DNA from: Byssothecium circinans
Taxonomy: Eukaryota > Ascomycota > Dothideomycetes > Pleosporales > Massarinaceae
NCBI GenBank assembly: GCA_010015675.1
Contig: ML977013.1
Location: 324,734 to 388,733 of the forward strand
Direction: 5' to 3'
Length of the DNA: 64,000 nt
The translations under genes were made by a program, and so were the position numbers. The notes under the pieces are model-generated. The model had not been told where the DNA came from. It saw only the letters and a program-made list of their open reading frames with translations, and did not search any database. The stretch's first letter is position 1. Every line of letters begins with the position of its first letter. This document shows positions 17,469 to 26,700 of this stretch, one piece after another.

Positions 17469-18023
17469 TCACCGCGCCGACCCATCCAACCCCTCCAGCC
17501 CCTCCATCCCCCCACCTTGCTGCCTATGCGCCAACCCACCCCCGCCACCCGCACCCCCACTCCCACCGATCCCCATATCCACAGGCCCAACCCCCAGCCC
17601 AAACCCAAAAGCCTCACGACTAAACATGCCGCCCCCATCATCCCCCAGCACCGGCGGTTCGACATTGAACGGCAGAAACCACCCCGCATTACTCGGGTCG
17701 TAAAACCCGCTTCCGCTCGCGCCGGCCATGGGATCTAGGTTCCAGTACGCGGCGTTTGAGGGATGGGCCGAGAGGTCGGGGAAGGGTGAGAGGTCCATTT
17801 GCTGGCCTGGATGGATCATCGTGGGCGTCGGCGAGGTGTTCAGCATAGTCAGGTTGTGTGCGGGATGCGGGGAGAAGTCTTGGAGGTATTGTGCGGCGTT
17901 TGCTTGGGCGAAGAAGGCTGGGTCGAAGGTGTCGATTGCTTCTTGCGGGTTGATGTTGATTTGGCCGAGTTGTTGGTGGAGTTGGCTGTGGTGGAGGTGT
18001 GGGAGCTGTTGTTGTTGTTGTTG

Positions 18024-18084
<61 letters not shown>

Positions 18085-20669
18085 GCTTGCTGAGCTGTGG
18101 GGGGTTTGTTGGTGGGAGCGTCGGTTTTGGAGACGGATTTTGATTTGTTTTTGCGGGCTTGTTTACGTTGTTGGTCGGCTCGTGAGGGGGGTGAGAGGGA
18201 GGCGAAGAACTCTTCTACGCTTTGTAAGTCGCTTTTTTGGCCGAGTACGGCGTCTGTGCCTGGCTCGTTGGCATTTGATTCTGCTGCGTCTTCGTAGTCG
18301 GTCTTGGATACACCGTGGGGGTATCGATCGAACCAGTCTCCGTATTGGAAGATGACGCCCTTGCTCTTCTCTCCCGCGGCTTGCGGACCTCTCAGCTGAG
18401 CGTCTGCATGCTGCCTGTATAGCTCCCTCAGGTTCTCGGCCATGTAGTGGAACATGCCCCAGTACTTCTTCATCTTACTCAGATACTTGACATTATAAGC
18501 CAGGTACTTCTTGGACTGTGCTTCCAGCTTCGGATTTTTCGAAAAGACGCCATGAACGTGGACCGTCGAGGAAAAGAAGGCAGCGTAGCCAGCAAATGGA
18601 GCAACGACGTTGTGGTCCATCGCTTCATTGATGAGTAGCGATATCTGATTCGCGGCATCGAGCGCGGAGCGTGCAGATTCAGTGAGGAAGTCGTGCGGCA
18701 TATCTTTCGGGGGCCGGCTGCCTGCTCGTGAGGGGAGAGAGAATCGGTACATGAAGAGGATGATCTGCTGATACAGTATGTGTAGATATATGTACTGGTT
18801 CGCGGTCCTGCCAATAGCGTGGCTCTTGAGGTTTTCTGGGCTGTAGATTAGCATCTCAGGTAGTGAGTCTTTGAACTCCTTGGCTTCTTGCTTGATCGTA
18901 TTGAGAGTTGACTTTGGCGACCACATGGGCTCTGTCTCCCGCTCTTTGCCGCCCAGATTCATATACTTGATGAGTTTGCCCCATGTACACACTAATCGGA
19001 TCGTGTATGCGGTCACGCCCATGTTCTCGCGAGGGTTCGCTAGTTGACCGTTGTCGGCGGAGACGGGGTTCGGAACGTTGCCGTCAAGGGCTTCTGTCGG
19101 TGCCTGGATCTCGTGAATGTACAAGTGCTCCTTGACGGGAAGTTGTACTTCGATGTACTGCTCATGTACGAAGAGCGGTCTATCGGTACCAGATGAGTTG
19201 AACCTGTCCATAAGAAAACAGGACCACATGGTCCGTCTTCGAATCTCTCGGTCTGTGGGGCTGAGAGGTTTTCGATCAGCTTCGGCTGAGCTGGGGTCGT
19301 ACTCGAGTTCTTTGTGTAGTTGCAGAGCATATGCCATCCTCTGCGCCATACCCCCAAACATCCAACTTCGGCCGCCCTGACACGTGCCGAACTCGTGTAG
19401 GCCAAGCAGCAAATACACTATGAGGATGGTGATGTTTGGCGAGTCGAACCGCTTAAGAGCGATGTCTCGCGCCCGCTCTGCCCAATTGTCGCCGCGCAAA
19501 AAGCATGGTTCTGTCCGTAACTGTGGATGGTTTGAGAAGCGGGCGGATATCGCACAGATGGCGAGTATCAGCACGGGCGGCACATTCCCCGACGCTAGTC
19601 GCCGCATGAAGCTGGGTTTGTGGAGCAGCGGATAGCTCTGGCCATAAACATAGTCAAAGTACACCTCGGCGAGATGTTCCTGTATCTCTTTCGGCGGCAG
19701 ACTCTCCGCGCCCTCTTTGAGCAGACTGTTGTCGTCGGACTCTTTCGTCTTGGACGCCGATCCCACGACATCCGGGTTTGCCGACTTGGTCTTGGCCCAT
19801 TCGTCCAATTCATTTCCAAACGCCTCTTCGGCACCGCGCTTCTTGTTCGCGGTCGGTGTCTTTGGGGGTGCACCCGGTATTGCAGGCTTCACTACAGATC
19901 GGCCGACTCCCGCTAAAATGGTACGTTTCTGGCTGTCTTCCGGTATGAGCTTGACGACGCGGTCCTCCATCCTCCGCAACCGCTTGTCCAACATGGCCAT
20001 GTAGTCCGTCCTGGGCGCCGCCTTGCGCGTCGTGACTTTGTATACGCAGGGTATTCGACTCCGCAGACAGTGCTTGCAAGCCGGCTTCTCGCCCGAGCAT
20101 CGGATCTTTTTCCTCCGACACGCGATGCAAGCCAGCGGCAATCTTTTTCTTTCCTTTCCTGCTTTGGTTTTCATCTCGCTCCACGAGGGCGGATCGGTCC
20201 CGTCGCCATTGTCGCCTTTGGAGGAATCCGCCGCATCCCTGCCCAGCCCGTCGTCCAGCTTCATCCCTAGTGACGACGCATCGTCCATGGATTCCCCCAT
20301 CAATAGCCCAATGCCACCCGAACTCGCTGGACTCGTGTTCTGCGCATCCTGGGCGAGAGTCATGTTCGCAGCGCTGCTCACACTCGAGCGATGCGGATGC
20401 GCACTCCCACCCGCGAGGGCATTGTCGTCGCTCATATTGCTCACGCTGCCTCTATGAGGCTGGTTATGATTTTGAAAGCCCGTCTTGACCGACGGCTGGG
20501 CCCTGTCGAACGAGGGGCTGAATCGGTGGCTCTGGCTGCCGTACATGGCGAGGTCGGAAAACGAGGCCATGATGTGGGAGGGGCTGTGGTTGAGGGCGTA
20601 GTCGGGGAAGGCGAGCAGGTCGGTGTCGTGCGGTTGATCGTAGCGGGCGTGGTGGGAGGGCGTGGCCAT
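17469..20669 (-). CDS. Zn2Cys6 transcription factor with fungal_trans domain and polyQ tract
   Basis: A single uninterrupted frame of 1066 residues. The binuclear zinc cluster is complete: Cys181, 184, 191, 198, 201 and 208 with C-x2-C-x6-C-x6-C-x2-C-x6-C spacing, followed by a basic linker and a short coiled coil (MLDKRLRRMEDRVVKLIPED). A fungal_trans regulatory domain occupies about 330-620 (EIQEHLAEVYFDYVYGQSYP, LLLGLHEFGTCQGGRSWMFG, RRRTMWSCFLMDRFNSSGTD). The C-terminus is low complexity, with 26 glutamines in a row at 863-888, Pro/His/Asn-rich stretches and a glycine-rich end. It is a nuclear DNA-binding regulator, but I cannot assign the ortholog or target pathway. It has 2.2 kb of gene-free DNA upstream, which is usual for regulators with complex promoters or long leaders. 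Confidence 0.93.
18006..18083 (-). repeat. Polyglutamine-coding trinucleotide tract (26 codons)
   Basis: The run is CAG mixed with CAA codons on the minus strand, coding Q863-Q888 of the Zn2Cys6 factor. CAA interruptions lie mainly at both ends, with a purer CAG core in the middle. Confidence 0.9.
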
Positions 20670-22882
20670 GTTCCTCCTGCCCTATCTTATTCTGCTCTTG
20701 CATGCAATTCTTCCTCCGCGTCGTCTGGTCGTGGGAGAGCCGAAATGGCGCACGCGCATCCGACTTCGCATTCCCAGGTGTCACTGTGCTCCCGCAGACT
20801 GGCGGCAGTCTCCCATCGAAGGAAGAGGTCGCGATAGAGAAGGTGTTCAGGCGCTCTTCATGTTACTCTGGTCATGTCACAGCTGTATGTCAAGGACGAA
20901 CATGAGCACGAGCACCGATCTAGCGATGCGAAAAGACGGGGAAAGGAAAGAAGGCAACCTCGGTCCAACCACAGCGCGCGAATTTCGTCTGATGCTACGA
21001 CAGGCATCTCCCACATCCCACATGGGCCATGCCTGTAAGTATTATTACTCAGACCCGACGAAGCATCAAAGCATGTCCTCTCTGAGGCTCGCTCCTTTCA
21101 CTCTCCCCTGAGGAGTCCCCTTCCGTTTCGCTCCCCTTTCCCATTATCATTGCTGCTGCAGCGGCGTTATCCTCCTCATCGACCCCCGCCACCTGAAGGA
21201 CGAAACATGCCATGCGTACATTATCATACATTATCGTACATCATCACGCAGCCCCTTCTTCCCGCCCGCTGCTGTGCTTACGCGGGGGAGCGGACACTAT
21301 GTGACTGTGAGGAGAATAATAATAAGCGGGCGCCTTGTTTGCTTGACTCTCGCCCTCGCCTGCTTTTTCTGCGGGGCTTCCGCTTCCGCCCGCATCCCTC
21401 GATTCACTCTCACCACCACCTGACCTGGACACCACTCATCCACCCAGCACCCATATGAAGTCGAAATCACCGCCTAATAACCCACGCACTTCTTCCACGT
21501 CCGCGCCGATCGCCTATTACCAGCGTGCCTGAGCGTTTCGCATCCATTCATTTCCTGCTTGCACGCGCCTCGTGACCTGCCCGACGAGTGCTTTCTCAAG
21601 TGTTTGGAGGCCCCGTCGTCACTATGACCATGACCATGTAGAAACGCGTAGATACAAATTGCGACCAAAAAGGGTGGTCAGCGACGATGTAAACGGGAGC
21701 GTAAAACCGATGTCGTGGCGTGTGCCTTCATGCGCTGCCTTGCCTTGCGTGTGCGGAACCCTCCCTGAATTGCGGCACAGGCAGCGGGGCGCTTCTTCTG
21801 TCTCCGTTGCGGCCTGAGAAGGGCCGATGGCTTTTCTAGAAGTTCTAGTTAGAATCAAGCATGACGACGACGGGCTGAACCCTAAAAAAGGTACCGCTGT
21901 CGACATGACATGAAATCCCCACACCTAAGCAACCTTCCCTCAAAGCGACCTTCCCCTCAACCCCTCGACCGACGCAAGCAAAGAACCCCTATCCTATCCT
22001 ATCCCCTACCGTCATCCCCTTCGTCCGTATCCGCACTCACCCCTGCATACTCCAAAACACGCAACCTCCATGGAAGCACGCACAAGCCCATCGTCCGCAT
22101 CTGCACCGACGCCCAAATTCCACATCTGCCATGCGGCCGCGTGGGCGCGTCTGGGGAAACGACTGGGGACTGGGATGCCGGGGCAGATCTTGGTAGAAGG
22201 AGTCTGTCTGTGGGGGAGGGAGAGAGAGATCAGGTGCATGCATGCATGAAGAGGGATTGATATTATTATCATCATGGCTGCTATTATTAACTAAGGGGGC
22301 GGTAAGGTAAGGGGTCGTTGACCGGTGCTTGAGTGAGTGAGCGAGTGAGTGGTGAGACAGGGGGGAAGGGAGAATGTACATGTATATAGATCTCTGTCCC
22401 ATTGTGATATTGCCAGAGTGTTATGTTAATACCGTTACGCCACCTCACGGGTATATAGGTGGTGCTGCACATGGGGGATGGGCATCCTGGAATCGATACA
22501 AAAACACTGCTGACACATGTCTTGGTCCAATAGCTGCGTTGGTATCTTGTTTGATAACGTCATGTTCTGGGATCCCAGGCATCGACTATTTAGCCTTGAA
22601 GTGGGTGTACACACAACGACGTACTGGAAGCACTCATGCCCGCACTTGCACAACACAACGCTAAAGTCCCGATACCATCACCCCCAAACTCGGTGGACTC
22701 ACTACTGGCCGTCCCCCACATCATACTTCACAGCGGCCTCCTGGTCCACATACTAGCAAGGAGCGTAGCTAGCTAGCTAGTTCACTTGCTATACGGACTG
22801 CTCACGCACAGGTCAGCCGTCTGCACCCTCCTCACTTGACTTTACGAATTACGAGAACTCACTTGTACTTCGCATACGAACT
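20670..22882. other. Long upstream region of the transcription factor
   Basis: No supported gene lies here. Frames up to 149 codons are shadows or lack any domain. Short palindromic tandem runs are present: TGCATGCATGCATG near 22238 and TAGCTAGCTAGCTAG near 22765. The TF leader and promoter lie at the left end; the 3' flank of the 22883-23249 gene is at the right end. Confidence 0.4.
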
Positions 22883-23249
22883 CTACGTCTGATCATCCTC
22901 AGCCTTGGTGGACAGATCCGTCACCAACTGTTCAGTCGTCGCATCGCCTGTAGTCATCCCCGTCAGCGTCGGTAAACCACGGACTCCAGAGAGTATACTC
23001 ACGAGACTCTCGTATGGCCTTCTTGATCCGAGTCTCAGCCTCAGTCTCAGCCTCATTCTTGGACGCGGCCGCACTAACAGCTTCGGCCTCCGCCGCATGG
23101 GGATACCTAGTATATGGCGAATAGCTCCAATAGGCTTGTCGCTTGTGCGCAGGATCGGACGATGCAGTATCCCCGTTATCAGAGGCGATTAGAGAAAGAG
23201 GAGCAGCGGCAGCGAGAGCTGCGATGACGGTGAGGAGAAGGATACGCAT
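22883..23249 (-). CDS. Small secreted protein with Kex2 site: candidate RiPP precursor
   Basis: The model is complement(join(22883..22947,23003..23249)), 103 residues. The 55-nt intron (GTGAGT...CTACAG) splits an Arg codon and restores frame into DATTEQLVTDLSTKAEDDQT. A signal peptide (MRILLLTVIAALAAAAP) is followed by a short polar leader, then a Kex2 dibasic site Lys36-Arg37 and the aromatic segment QAYWSYSPYTRYP (38-50) with four Tyr and one Trp. An Ala/Glu-rich acidic tail with EAEA-type dipeptides and a second dibasic site (KK 76-77) follows. This architecture (secretion signal, KR, Tyr-rich core) is that of fungal Kex2-processed ribosomal peptide precursors. It lies 819 bp from, and divergent to, a UstYa-family gene. 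Unlike UstA-type precursors it has one core, not repeats; it could instead be an ordinary small secreted protein. Confidence 0.72.
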
Positions 23250-24068
23250 GATGCTGGTTCTAGTAGGGAGTAAATCGATGAAGAGGTGATTGGCGAGGAT
23301 GCTGCAGTCAAGGACTCAATTCCATGGGGAGGCTGGAAGATATAGGGAGAGCAAACATCAAGCTAGATGTTGGTGAGTTGCCTGAATGCTAGCTTCCTGT
23401 CTGTATGAGCTTCTTCAGGATCACCAAGTTCTTTGGTCCGTCTATATGGCATATCGTACAAGGCGAGGCGAGTGGTTCATTGGGCATGAAAGGCAGACAC
23501 TAGTACCTCGGGATGTGGGAATTCATAGCTGTCAAACTGTCTAGAGCGTGATGGGTGTACCGGTGACGGTGCGAAGAGCGATTGTAGGCTGTCACAGTAA
23601 CCTCGACACGATCTTGGAGCCACGCTGCCAAAGGAACCGTTACACCCGGTACTAGTCTCAGAGTTAATGCGCCGTGATCTGTTTGCTTCGTGAGGAGTGG
23701 ACGAGCGCCTGGATAGTTGTCAATCATACTCACAGAGCAAAGCGTCCGGATGAATGTTATGAGTGACAAAACGGACGACTGTATGCAGTGGAATGAACAA
23801 GATGACCATAACTTTTCAAGAGTCGTCTTGTCGATTGATTGTACCGATAGTAACATTGACAGTGCATGGTGGCTGGGGTTGTATCCACTAGGGGACTTGT
23901 GCTTTCCCGTTGATCTAACGGGAGCGCAGTCTTCTCTGAAAGTACATAGTGGCACTTCTCAATCGCACCCGTATTGGCAGAAAGTTGGTTCGTCGCATAC
24001 AAACTTCGTAATCATCTCAAGTGCGTGGTCTCTGTCGCCCGTTCTTTCTACGTATCCGATCCCTTTCC
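23250..24068. promoter_or_regulatory. Shared divergent promoter of the secreted peptide gene and the UstYa-like gene
   Basis: Both start codons face away from this 819-bp spacer. A TATA-like CTATATC on the minus strand lies near 23341, about 90 bp upstream of the peptide-gene ATG. An open minus-strand frame at 23500-23856 has an ATG but no domain or conserved look and is not annotated. Confidence 0.4.
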
Positions 24069-25138
24069 ATGCGGTTCGCAATGTTCGCCCGACTCTTTAA
24101 GAAGCCAAAACTTTTCGAAGTGTCCAAAGACGACGAAGAAAACGCAGACAGCGAGACTCTTCTCCCATCAACTCCCCCCCACCACTCGCTGGTAGTCGAC
24201 AAGGTCATCGAAGATCGGCGCAGAAGAGATTTCAAAGTCGCTGCCAGAACGCTAGTTCTAAGCAGCGCTCTGTACATATTAATCGGGCTGTGGATAGCGC
24301 TCAGTGTGGGTCATGCAACATGCATATCAGACGCTGATGAGTTTTGCATCCGCCATGTCTCACGATACTGTAAGCCTTGAGAGCCCGACTGTTATCTGAG
24401 CCTGACGATGTACAGCGCCACTGGTGAATGAAGTCAAACCAAATTGGCGGACGATACAGTTCAACGGATCTTTCCTGCACGAGAATGTCTATCGAGGGCG
24501 CGCGGGGCCTGATGTTGACGCCGCTTGGGAAGCCTTGGGCACTGATTGTGGGTTGAGCATTGCCATAACAAAGTATAATGCTGACATGCGGGAAAGATCG
24601 TAGTGTTGTCATTCCGCCCGAAGAAGCTGAGCAAACAGGATTACGGTCTGACCAAGTCAAAGTTGCTTCTATTTACGGCGATGGCTATCCGGCGAACGTT
24701 GAAGGCTTGCACCATTTGCATTGTCTGGTAAGGACCTGATTGATGACTGACATGATCTTGATGCTAACGACGTCAAAGAATCTCCTCCGGAAGTCGCTGA
24801 AGTGGAACTACGACCATTACCAGAAGCAAGGGAGAGGGCCATTCAGCAACAGCGAGCACATCGTCCGGTACCATGTCACGCATTGTTTGGACATACTGCG
24901 CCAGCAGCTCATGTGCGTGACTGATATTGGAGTACTCGGGCAGGTGTGGTGGCAGCCTGACAACCAGGACTATCCGGAGCCGTTCGTCGACTTCAATACG
25001 AAGCATCGCTGTCGAGACTTCGAGGCCATCCGGAAGTGGGCGAAAGCGCATCAGCTCCCTCCCGAGGAAGAAGTTGACATGAGCACTATCTACCAGAGGC
25101 CGAATCCTGGCGATCTGATCTACCCTGAGATACCATGA
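24069..25138 (+). CDS. UstYa-family (DUF3328) oxidase
   Basis: The model is join(24069..24369,24416..24547,24597..24727,24779..25138), 307 residues; all three short introns keep phase. A cytosolic acidic N-terminus is followed by one transmembrane segment (about 60-80, TLVLSSALYILIGLWIALSV), then the luminal DUF3328 domain. It has the family features: FNGSFLHENVYRG followed by PDVDAAWEAL, and both HxxHC motifs, HHLHC (in EGLHHLHCLNLLRKSL) and HVTHC (in RYHVTHCLDILRQQL), which bind the metal in this family, then HRCRDFEAIRKW. UstYa proteins catalyse oxidative cyclisation of Tyr/Trp side chains in dikaritin peptides, and also act in other pathways. All key residues are intact. The start could also be the in-frame ATG at 24081. 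The neighbouring Kex2-type secreted peptide is the obvious candidate substrate (inference). Confidence 0.9.
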
Positions 25139-25235: not shown

Positions 25236-25919
25236 TCAATTCTGGCGCGGCTTCACCACGCCGTCGTGGATGATGTAGTAGACGACGGTACTGTCCGTGT
25301 CAGCTGTGGCCAGCACCACTCGCTTTGTTGTTCTCCATGGATTGGCCGAAGCGTTTCCTTCTGCGCCTGACGACTCTGGACCCGGTGGTACCACAGTTAT
25401 GGCATCGAACACTTCAGCAAGGCGGCGTAGCGTCCACTTCTCGCTCAAGCGGGTCGGCAGGATCCACTCGCGCTCCGGGGCTGGCTTGACGTCCAGCGTG
25501 CCTCCGCTGCCCTCCTTGTTCGCCTTGCGCGCGCGGTCGGCGTCCTTGAGCAGCTCAATCTGCTCGTCGGGGTGGATGTAGAGGCGCTGTGGTGGCAGGC
25601 CGGATAGCAGCGGTCGTGGAAGGGGCTCATTGGTGACGCGAGAGTGCGTATGGATGTCGACATGAGTCCAAAAGTGCTGGTACTGGAGGTTGTGCTGGAT
25701 CTGGAGGGCGAGCGAGTGCAAACCGGGCAGGTGCGATGGGTGCGATGGCGGTTGCTTGTCCTGGATGAGAGACTGGAGCGGAGAGGGCTGGAGAGCCGGT
25801 TTCATGTTCGCTGGCCGCGTCATGGTACGGAGGAATTGGGTGAAGTAATTGGGCAGTGCAGAGTGCGTTTGTGGTAGAGTGACATAGCTGGCTGTGAAGG
25901 GAAGGTCGCGAAGATCCAT
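25236..25919 (-). CDS. SEN15: tRNA-splicing endonuclease subunit Sen15
   Basis: A single exon of 227 residues, ATG at 25919-25917, TGA at 25238-25236. The C-terminal Sen15 domain is recognisable: an N-terminal helix (LALQIQHNLQYQHFWTHVDI), the strand-helix REWILPTRLSEKWTLRRLAE with VFDAI, and the C-terminal VVYYIIHDGVVKPRQN. Sen15 is a structural subunit of the SEN heterotetramer that cuts pre-tRNA introns; it has no catalytic triad, consistent with what is seen. The N-terminal 60 residues (Pro/Gln/Ser-rich) are poorly conserved. It converges with the UstYa-like gene across 97 bp, so its presence marks a boundary of the putative peptide locus. Confidence 0.85.
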   Translation of the reverse strand: MDLRDLPFTASYVTLPQTHSALPNYFTQFLRTMTRPANMKPALQPSPLQSLIQDKQPPSHPSHLPGLHSLALQIQHNLQYQHFWTHVDIHTHSRVTNEPLPRPLLSGLPPQRLYIHPDEQIELLKDADRARKANKEGSGGTLDVKPAPEREWILPTRLSEKWTLRRLAEVFDAITVVPPGPESSGAEGNASANPWRTTKRVVLATADTDSTVVYYIIHDGVVKPRQN

Positions 25920-26124: not shown

Positions 26125-26700
26125 ATGCTCGGCTCAACATTGGCTAGCGCCTTGCTCCTTCTGGCTAGCGCCACGGCACAGAGTGCGTTACTCCCCCACT
26201 GCACCGAGGTGTGCTTCGTCCAACCTTGCGCTCCATGTGCGTGCATTTAGTAGAGGCGATGGAAACATCTAACATGGACAGGTACGCCGCCGACGGATAT
26301 CATGAGCATTCTCCCCATCTCCACGTCAGCCAGCGATATCAACAGCGTGCTGCCCATCACGAGCACTCCCGTGTTGAGCGGTGCTCCCTCATTGACAGAC
26401 ACCGTGATCACTCGCCCCGGTCCTCCGACTAGTGTCTCTGGTTCGGCATCCATTCCCGCTGGAGAGACGCCCCTCAACACCACCGTCACCTCTGTCTCTG
26501 TCACCACTTCCACATCTCCAAGCGGAAACGCAACCTCTACGCCGACGCGGACTTCGGGCCAGTCTTCAAGCCAGTCTTCAGGCCAGTCTGCATCCTCGTC
26601 GAGCGCTCCTCCACCTTCGAGTGCAGCAGGTCCAGCTCTTCAAATCGGTGGAAACTGCCTCCTTGCCGCCGTCATCGGCCTCGGCTGGACGCTGTTTTGA
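26125..26700 (+). CDS. Small GPI-anchored Cys/Ser/Thr-rich surface protein
   Basis: The model is join(26125..26236,26282..26700), 176 residues. The 45-nt intron (GTGCGT...GGACAG) splits a Cys codon and restores frame into PCAPCTPPTDIMSILP. Residues 1-18 are a signal peptide (MLGSTLASALLLLASATA). A mini cluster of four cysteines follows (Cys26, 30, 35, 38; HCTEVCFVQPCAPC), too few for a CFEM domain. Residues 45-150 are Ser/Thr/Pro-rich and likely O-glycosylated. The C-terminus (LQIGGNCLLAAVIGLGWTLF) is hydrophobic to the end, as in GPI-attachment signals. It is probably a cell-wall or plasma-membrane surface protein of unknown role. Confidence 0.75.

Follow-up and report, generated by a model that had tools for sequence, protein, structure and literature searches.

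A UstYa-family gene and a divergent candidate single-core peptide precursor in Byssothecium circinans

The window analysed here, a stretch of 64,000 nucleotides of the Byssothecium circinans genome (Pleosporales, Massarinaceae; C37:324734-388733; the genome has 48.4 Mb in 109 contigs), raises a question of peptide biosynthesis: Could a small secreted protein with one Kex2-type site and a single aromatic segment be the substrate of the UstYa/DUF3328 protein encoded divergently beside it? The initial annotation had proposed a compact RiPP locus of this kind, while describing the joint function of the two genes as something inferred, a description that we retain. The geometry on which it relied is correct: the small gene (22883..23249, minus strand) and the UstYa gene (24069..25138, plus strand) are divergent and separated by an intergenic region of 819 bp (23250..24068). 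Its statement that UstYa-type oxidases of known pathways act on Kex2-released peptides likewise agrees with what has been reported (PMC7329392, PMC10512285).

The UstYa gene is complete, as had been claimed. Its four exons (24069-24369, 24416-24547, 24597-24727, and 24779-25138) encode 307 residues that match PF11807 from profile position 3 to 220 of 220 (E 2.5e-54; 184.9 bits, gathering threshold 25) and contain both HxxHC motifs, HHLHC (24710..24724) and HVTHC (24872..24886), all on the plus strand; the corresponding NCBI model, CC80DRAFT_508414, begins four residues later. In 50 aligned UstYa proteins, hand-picked from the best 120 of 568 matches, the His and Cys residues of both motifs are invariant. 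The AlphaFold2 monomer (pLDDT 81.7, pTM 0.67) starts with a disordered segment, which is followed by a long helix at residues 37-78; the motifs are borne by two further helices, 178-201 and 210-229. No solved structure resembled this model at E 0.001 or better (83 did at E up to 10), and no sequence relative with a solved structure was found. The predicted architecture is like that of CctR, a copper-dependent DUF3328 hydroxylase that also carries two HxxHC motifs on paired helices behind a membrane helix, and whose binuclear copper centre is described as formed by four histidines and two cysteines at the dimer interface (PMC12435403). The comparison is one of architecture, and CctR differs in that its substrate is a non-ribosomal cyclic peptide and that it works within a cluster. 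By analogy with CctR, the predicted monomer is compatible with a binuclear copper site, a lumenal catalytic domain, and oxidase activity.

The small gene is probably a real gene. Our two-exon model (exon 1 at 23249-23003, a 55-nt intron GTGAGT...CTACAG at 23002-22948, exon 2 at 22947-22883, minus strand) yields the 103-residue protein described initially, and the NCBI record, CC80DRAFT_508413, is identical to it for residues 1-82. That record has 107 residues and introns at 23002-22889 and 22862-22753; rebuilding with its alternative exons 2 (22888-22863) and 3 (22752-22702), spanning 22702..22888 on the same strand, reproduces the NCBI protein letter for letter. Since the two models use different introns after residue 82, the C-terminus depends on the model; common to both are the start, which is hydrophobic and signal-like by a simple hydropathy rule, Lys36-Arg37 as a putative Kex2 site (23139..23144, minus), and the aromatic segment QAYWSYSPYTRYP, the putative core of residues 38-50 (23100..23138, minus), which has five aromatics in 13 residues and is followed by an Ala/Glu-rich stretch. 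Lys76-Lys77 (23019..23024, minus) is the sole other dibasic pair in either model. It could still be that the protein does not exist as modelled, its frame being mis-annotated or its end different, as the disagreement after residue 82, the failure to find any relative, and a codon score of about zero for exon 2 of the 103-residue model would have it. We consider this rather improbable in view of the signal-like start, the GTGAGT donor at 23002 that both models share, and the codon score of exon 1, which at 0.11 exceeds those of the other five frames and that of UstYa exon 1 (0.065), the unspliced frame ranking 12th among the 102 window frames of similar size class.

How might the two genes be related? 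The best explanation, which we hold tentatively and at somewhat less than even probability, is that the small gene encodes a single-core substrate of the divergent UstYa. The precursor would enter the endoplasmic reticulum through its signal peptide, and Kex2 would cut after Lys36-Arg37 to expose a single core rich in Tyr and Trp. This core would begin with Gln38 or, should Ste13 trim the QA pair, with Tyr40. The membrane-anchored UstYa, whose two HxxHC motifs would make up a copper site on the lumenal side of the secretory pathway, would then oxidise this core, probably through cross-links between, or hydroxylation of, Tyr/Trp side chains, and the product would be a single-core, dikaritin-like peptide. 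On the side of the enzyme, this reading draws on the intact UstYa, its invariant motifs, and the CctR-like model; on the side of the substrate, it draws on an immediate divergent neighbour whose combination of signal-like start, KR, and dense aromatics is unique in the loci screened. What the data show directly is the two genes, their motifs and divergent orientation, and a UstYa conserved at a fixed place; we infer the Kex2 and Ste13 cleavages, the copper site (by analogy with CctR), the functional link between the genes, and the type of oxidation.

Comparison with known systems shows both the appeal of this explanation and its distance from precedent. Like the candidate, asperipin-2a and other dikaritins (ustiloxin, phomopsin, victorin) combine a secreted Kex2-type precursor adjoining a UstYa/DUF3328 gene with a Tyr-rich core; their cores are repeated between dibasic sites, whereas the candidate has one core and one KR. 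Repeats are present in the ustiloxin, phomopsin, and victorin precursors. In the small protein no repeat was found, only one KR and one KK. The locus also has no tyrosinase or methyltransferase among the 36 window proteins scanned, though such genes are not in all dikaritin clusters. Kex2-processed repeat proteins (KEPs), which the candidate resembles in its signal-like start (by the hydropathy rule) and its KR, are defined as having at least three repeats of at least eight residues between dibasic sites (PMC7329392). The small protein was accordingly rejected as a KEP, having one KR, no repeat, and only KK76 downstream; because of the missing repeats it is not filed as a KEP or dikaritin member, but may work like one. 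According to the same survey, the largest for precursors of this type, DUF3328 genes lie near 22% of 7878 precursors with a peak at the very next gene, and tyrosine occurs in 65.6% of DUF3328-linked repeats versus 38.2% of others, two findings that speak for a substrate role of the small protein; 31.8% of 9399 DUF3328 counts are near repeat precursors, and asperipin-2a requires a single DUF3328 protein (PMC7329392).

Cores without repeats have been considered before. A lichen survey named a single core peptide among the explanations that might account for the absence of repeats, thus proposing a possible single-core DUF3328 system, and differs from the present case in that it reports no precursor found for those DUF3328 clans (PMC12048977). 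For cluster 55 of Trichoderma reesei, a non-repeat precursor of 109 residues was predicted with its core at the sole KK site, so that non-repeat fungal cores with a single dibasic site had already been proposed; that precursor was inferred beside an adjoining sulfatase, the section describing it naming no UstYa (PMC7099791). For Venturia, the presence of at least one repeat in the vicinity of DUF3328 is described as the basis on which dikaritins were called (PMC9632046). No proven single-core UstYa substrate was found described in the titles and abstracts of the literature searched, in which subscription papers are thinly covered, and text searches for core fragments, for the locus tag of the small gene, or for the tags of in-between genes in relatives (see below) found no paper.

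How unusual, then, is the small protein? We gauged this with a crude screen for open reading frames with a signal-like start, KR, and at least four Y/W/F within the next 15 residues, which was designed after the candidate was known and measures rarity rather than significance, a point that weighs against the substrate explanation. The candidate was the sole match in the window and 32 UstYa loci (115 kb), and no match appeared in 26 other loci of the same genome (79 kb) or in five mononucleotide shuffles of the window; relaxation to three aromatics gave five matches in the window. The flanks of the UstYa loci in this screen and in the repeat screen discussed below were mostly 1.5 kb, and precursors lying farther away would escape both. 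The pattern KRxxYWxYxxY is found in the genome only at the candidate site, and the protein has no paralogue there. A search of 5.8 billion proteins at E up to 1, of low reach for short proteins, yielded 56 candidates and no match other than the protein itself; by our own estimate it would overlook relatives whose core has changed moderately, because so few candidates implies that several exact five-residue words must match. Viral contigs contained no match to the small protein, to UstYa, or to the Zn2Cys6 regulator nearby.

These results bear on a different possibility that we judge nearly as likely as the substrate explanation, namely that the genes are mere neighbours: UstYa, an old enzyme, would act on another substrate, while the small gene would encode a lineage-specific secreted protein with a pro-region removed by Kex2, its mature form being the entire part after KR. 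That no relative or paralogue was found fits this and tells against a substrate, the more so as the UstYa of the nearest relatives is in the database searched. So does the lack of a second dibasic site near the core: cuts at KR and KK76 would release 38 residues instead of a short core. DUF3328 enzymes are, moreover, said to serve non-RiPP pathways too (PMC12048977). Against the neighbour account, an aromatic segment that follows KR directly is a rarity among the loci screened and is what UstYa substrates would look like, and relatives without common exact words are missed even in a search of this size.

The QA behind KR suggests yet another role, since it forms an X-A pair of the kind that Ste13 trims: the product could be a linear, pheromone-like Kex2/Ste13 peptide signal that UstYa does not modify. 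In Ascomycota, the XA/XP signature is reported to occur, as a rule, in alpha pheromones only (PMC6339444). An exact search of the rest of the genome for PYG[LM]P[IV]G, the motif customary in Pleosporales, gave no match, so that no canonical pheromone was found to fill that role. The candidate itself, however, has neither this motif nor repeats, and nearly all pheromone-type repeat genes are reported to be without DUF3328 neighbours (PMC7329392). A wider pattern, PYGxPxG, occurs at 31 places versus 36 in the reversed control, with no repeat protein in the 26 loci fetched, and the looser (K)(R or S)-x-A-x-W is uninformative (371 matches versus 342 in the control); the pheromone gene of this family may be altered, intron-split, or missing from the assembly. 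On balance we regard a pheromone-like signal as the least probable of the explanations considered here.

The surroundings of the pair answer part of the initial proposal. As it had stated, SEN15, a tRNA splicing endonuclease subunit and housekeeping gene, closes one side (25236..25919, minus; PF09631, 1.7e-23), and neither a second UstYa nor a methyltransferase or transporter is adjacent: the Pfam scan of 36 window proteins, a subset of the possible exons, revealed no second UstYa, methyltransferase, or tyrosinase, and the ABC transporter that it did reveal lies 34 kb away from the pair. The other Pfam matches are a VASt/BAR/PH protein, KRI1, a mitochondrial carrier, DJ-1/PfpI, DUF2985, a ubiquitin-like protein, a cytidine deaminase type, GH25, SelO, ORC5, a weak WD40 fragment, a cutinase, an esterase fragment, and GH28. 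UstYa is thus surrounded mostly by housekeeping genes, not by a biosynthetic cluster, and this setting, with no other tailoring gene among the 36 proteins, counts against a substrate role and suits mere neighbours. The initial proposal is supported in part: it holds as regards the genes, motifs, and distance, but UstYa looks like an old, vertically inherited orthologue kept near a Zn2Cys6 regulator among mostly housekeeping genes, which casts doubt on a conventional biosynthetic cluster. Next to SEN15, at 26126-26700 (plus), there is also a small protein rich in Ser and Thr. It has a signal-like start, ends in a hydrophobic stretch, and may be GPI-anchored; its frame 26302-26700 has no Pfam match.

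The age of UstYa emerges from its association with a Zn2Cys6 regulator (17469..20669, minus; PF00172, PF04082), which we used as a second bait for synteny. This regulator contains a long polyglutamine run and shares 66-88% identity with the corresponding proteins of the Pleosporales compared. Taking the best 120 of 1211 regulator matches and the best 120 of 568 UstYa matches, 34 species are named in both lists, and in 28 of these 34, counted by eye among the matches listed, the two genes are on contigs of identical length; equality of the longest contig in the records is a proxy for a single contig, which on megabase contigs says little about distance. The smallest contigs with both genes have 34,948 bases (Delitschia) and 40,163 bases (Glonium). 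The six exceptions are Setomelanomma and five others, Corynespora, Ampelomyces, Dendryphion, Macroventuria, and Bipolaris maydis, which have only lower-ranked UstYa among the matches listed. Distances for UstYa and the regulator are correlated over 30 species (29 pairs including Setomelanomma, and B. circinans, with the five other exceptions left out; r 0.687, as high in 0 of 2000 permutations). From the shared contigs and this divergence in step, UstYa looks like an old orthologue vertically inherited at a fixed place near the regulator. The parallel divergence of these two genes (r 0.69), beside a small protein for which no relative was found, again favours mere neighbours.

Do relatives have a gene at the position of the small one? 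Assuming that locus-tag numbers follow chromosomal position, one number lies between the UstYa and regulator tags in P. teres f. teres (CFE70_007643/007645), A. rabiei (EKO05_0008690/0008692), and C. clavata (yc1106_07915/07913), which we count in favour of the substrate explanation; four numbers lie between them in three further genomes (N0V90_011014/011009, PMIN03_000095/000100, and ACN47E_003277/003272), and the remaining pair, HBH56_174820/174720, has a numbering step that is not known. At least one gene number thus intervenes in every one of the seven genomes tagged in this way. A genuine two-gene system would predict a counterpart of the small gene at this intermediate position in relatives; the in-between numbers fit this but prove nothing. 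Together with the fixed place of UstYa, they are the best new lead. A bolder version of the substrate explanation, which we think unlikely, would be a fixed and very old two-gene system throughout Pleosporales and near relatives, in which a single-core Kex2 precursor is kept with its own UstYa near one regulator. Were this true, the modified peptide would have a core fungal role, in signalling or development, rather than that of an accessory toxin, and would have been overlooked because peptide mining asks for repeats. Single-core precursors would be invisible to a survey that, as described, requires at least three repeats (PMC7329392), and some UstYa genes that are now orphans could have them as substrates. 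The constant position of this UstYa through a fungal order also offers a good handle on what such copper enzymes do outside toxin clusters.

The same genome provides an ordinary dikaritin-type locus for comparison. When 34 UstYa loci and the window were screened for repeats, the sole match, which turned up in two overlapping loci, was a precursor at C37:255807-255265 (minus), some 69 kb upstream of the window and beside another UstYa. In this protein a signal-like start precedes nine QDDGWKIS-type units with KR or RR between them. It resembles the candidate in its signal-like start, KR, and adjacent UstYa, and differs in its nine units, the candidate having one core and no sequence likeness to it. 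Genome-wide, PF11807 gives 56 exon-wise matches, which we read as about 35 loci, and two or three UstYa genes lie close together at C3:314 kb, C53:231-234 kb, and C17:1027 kb.
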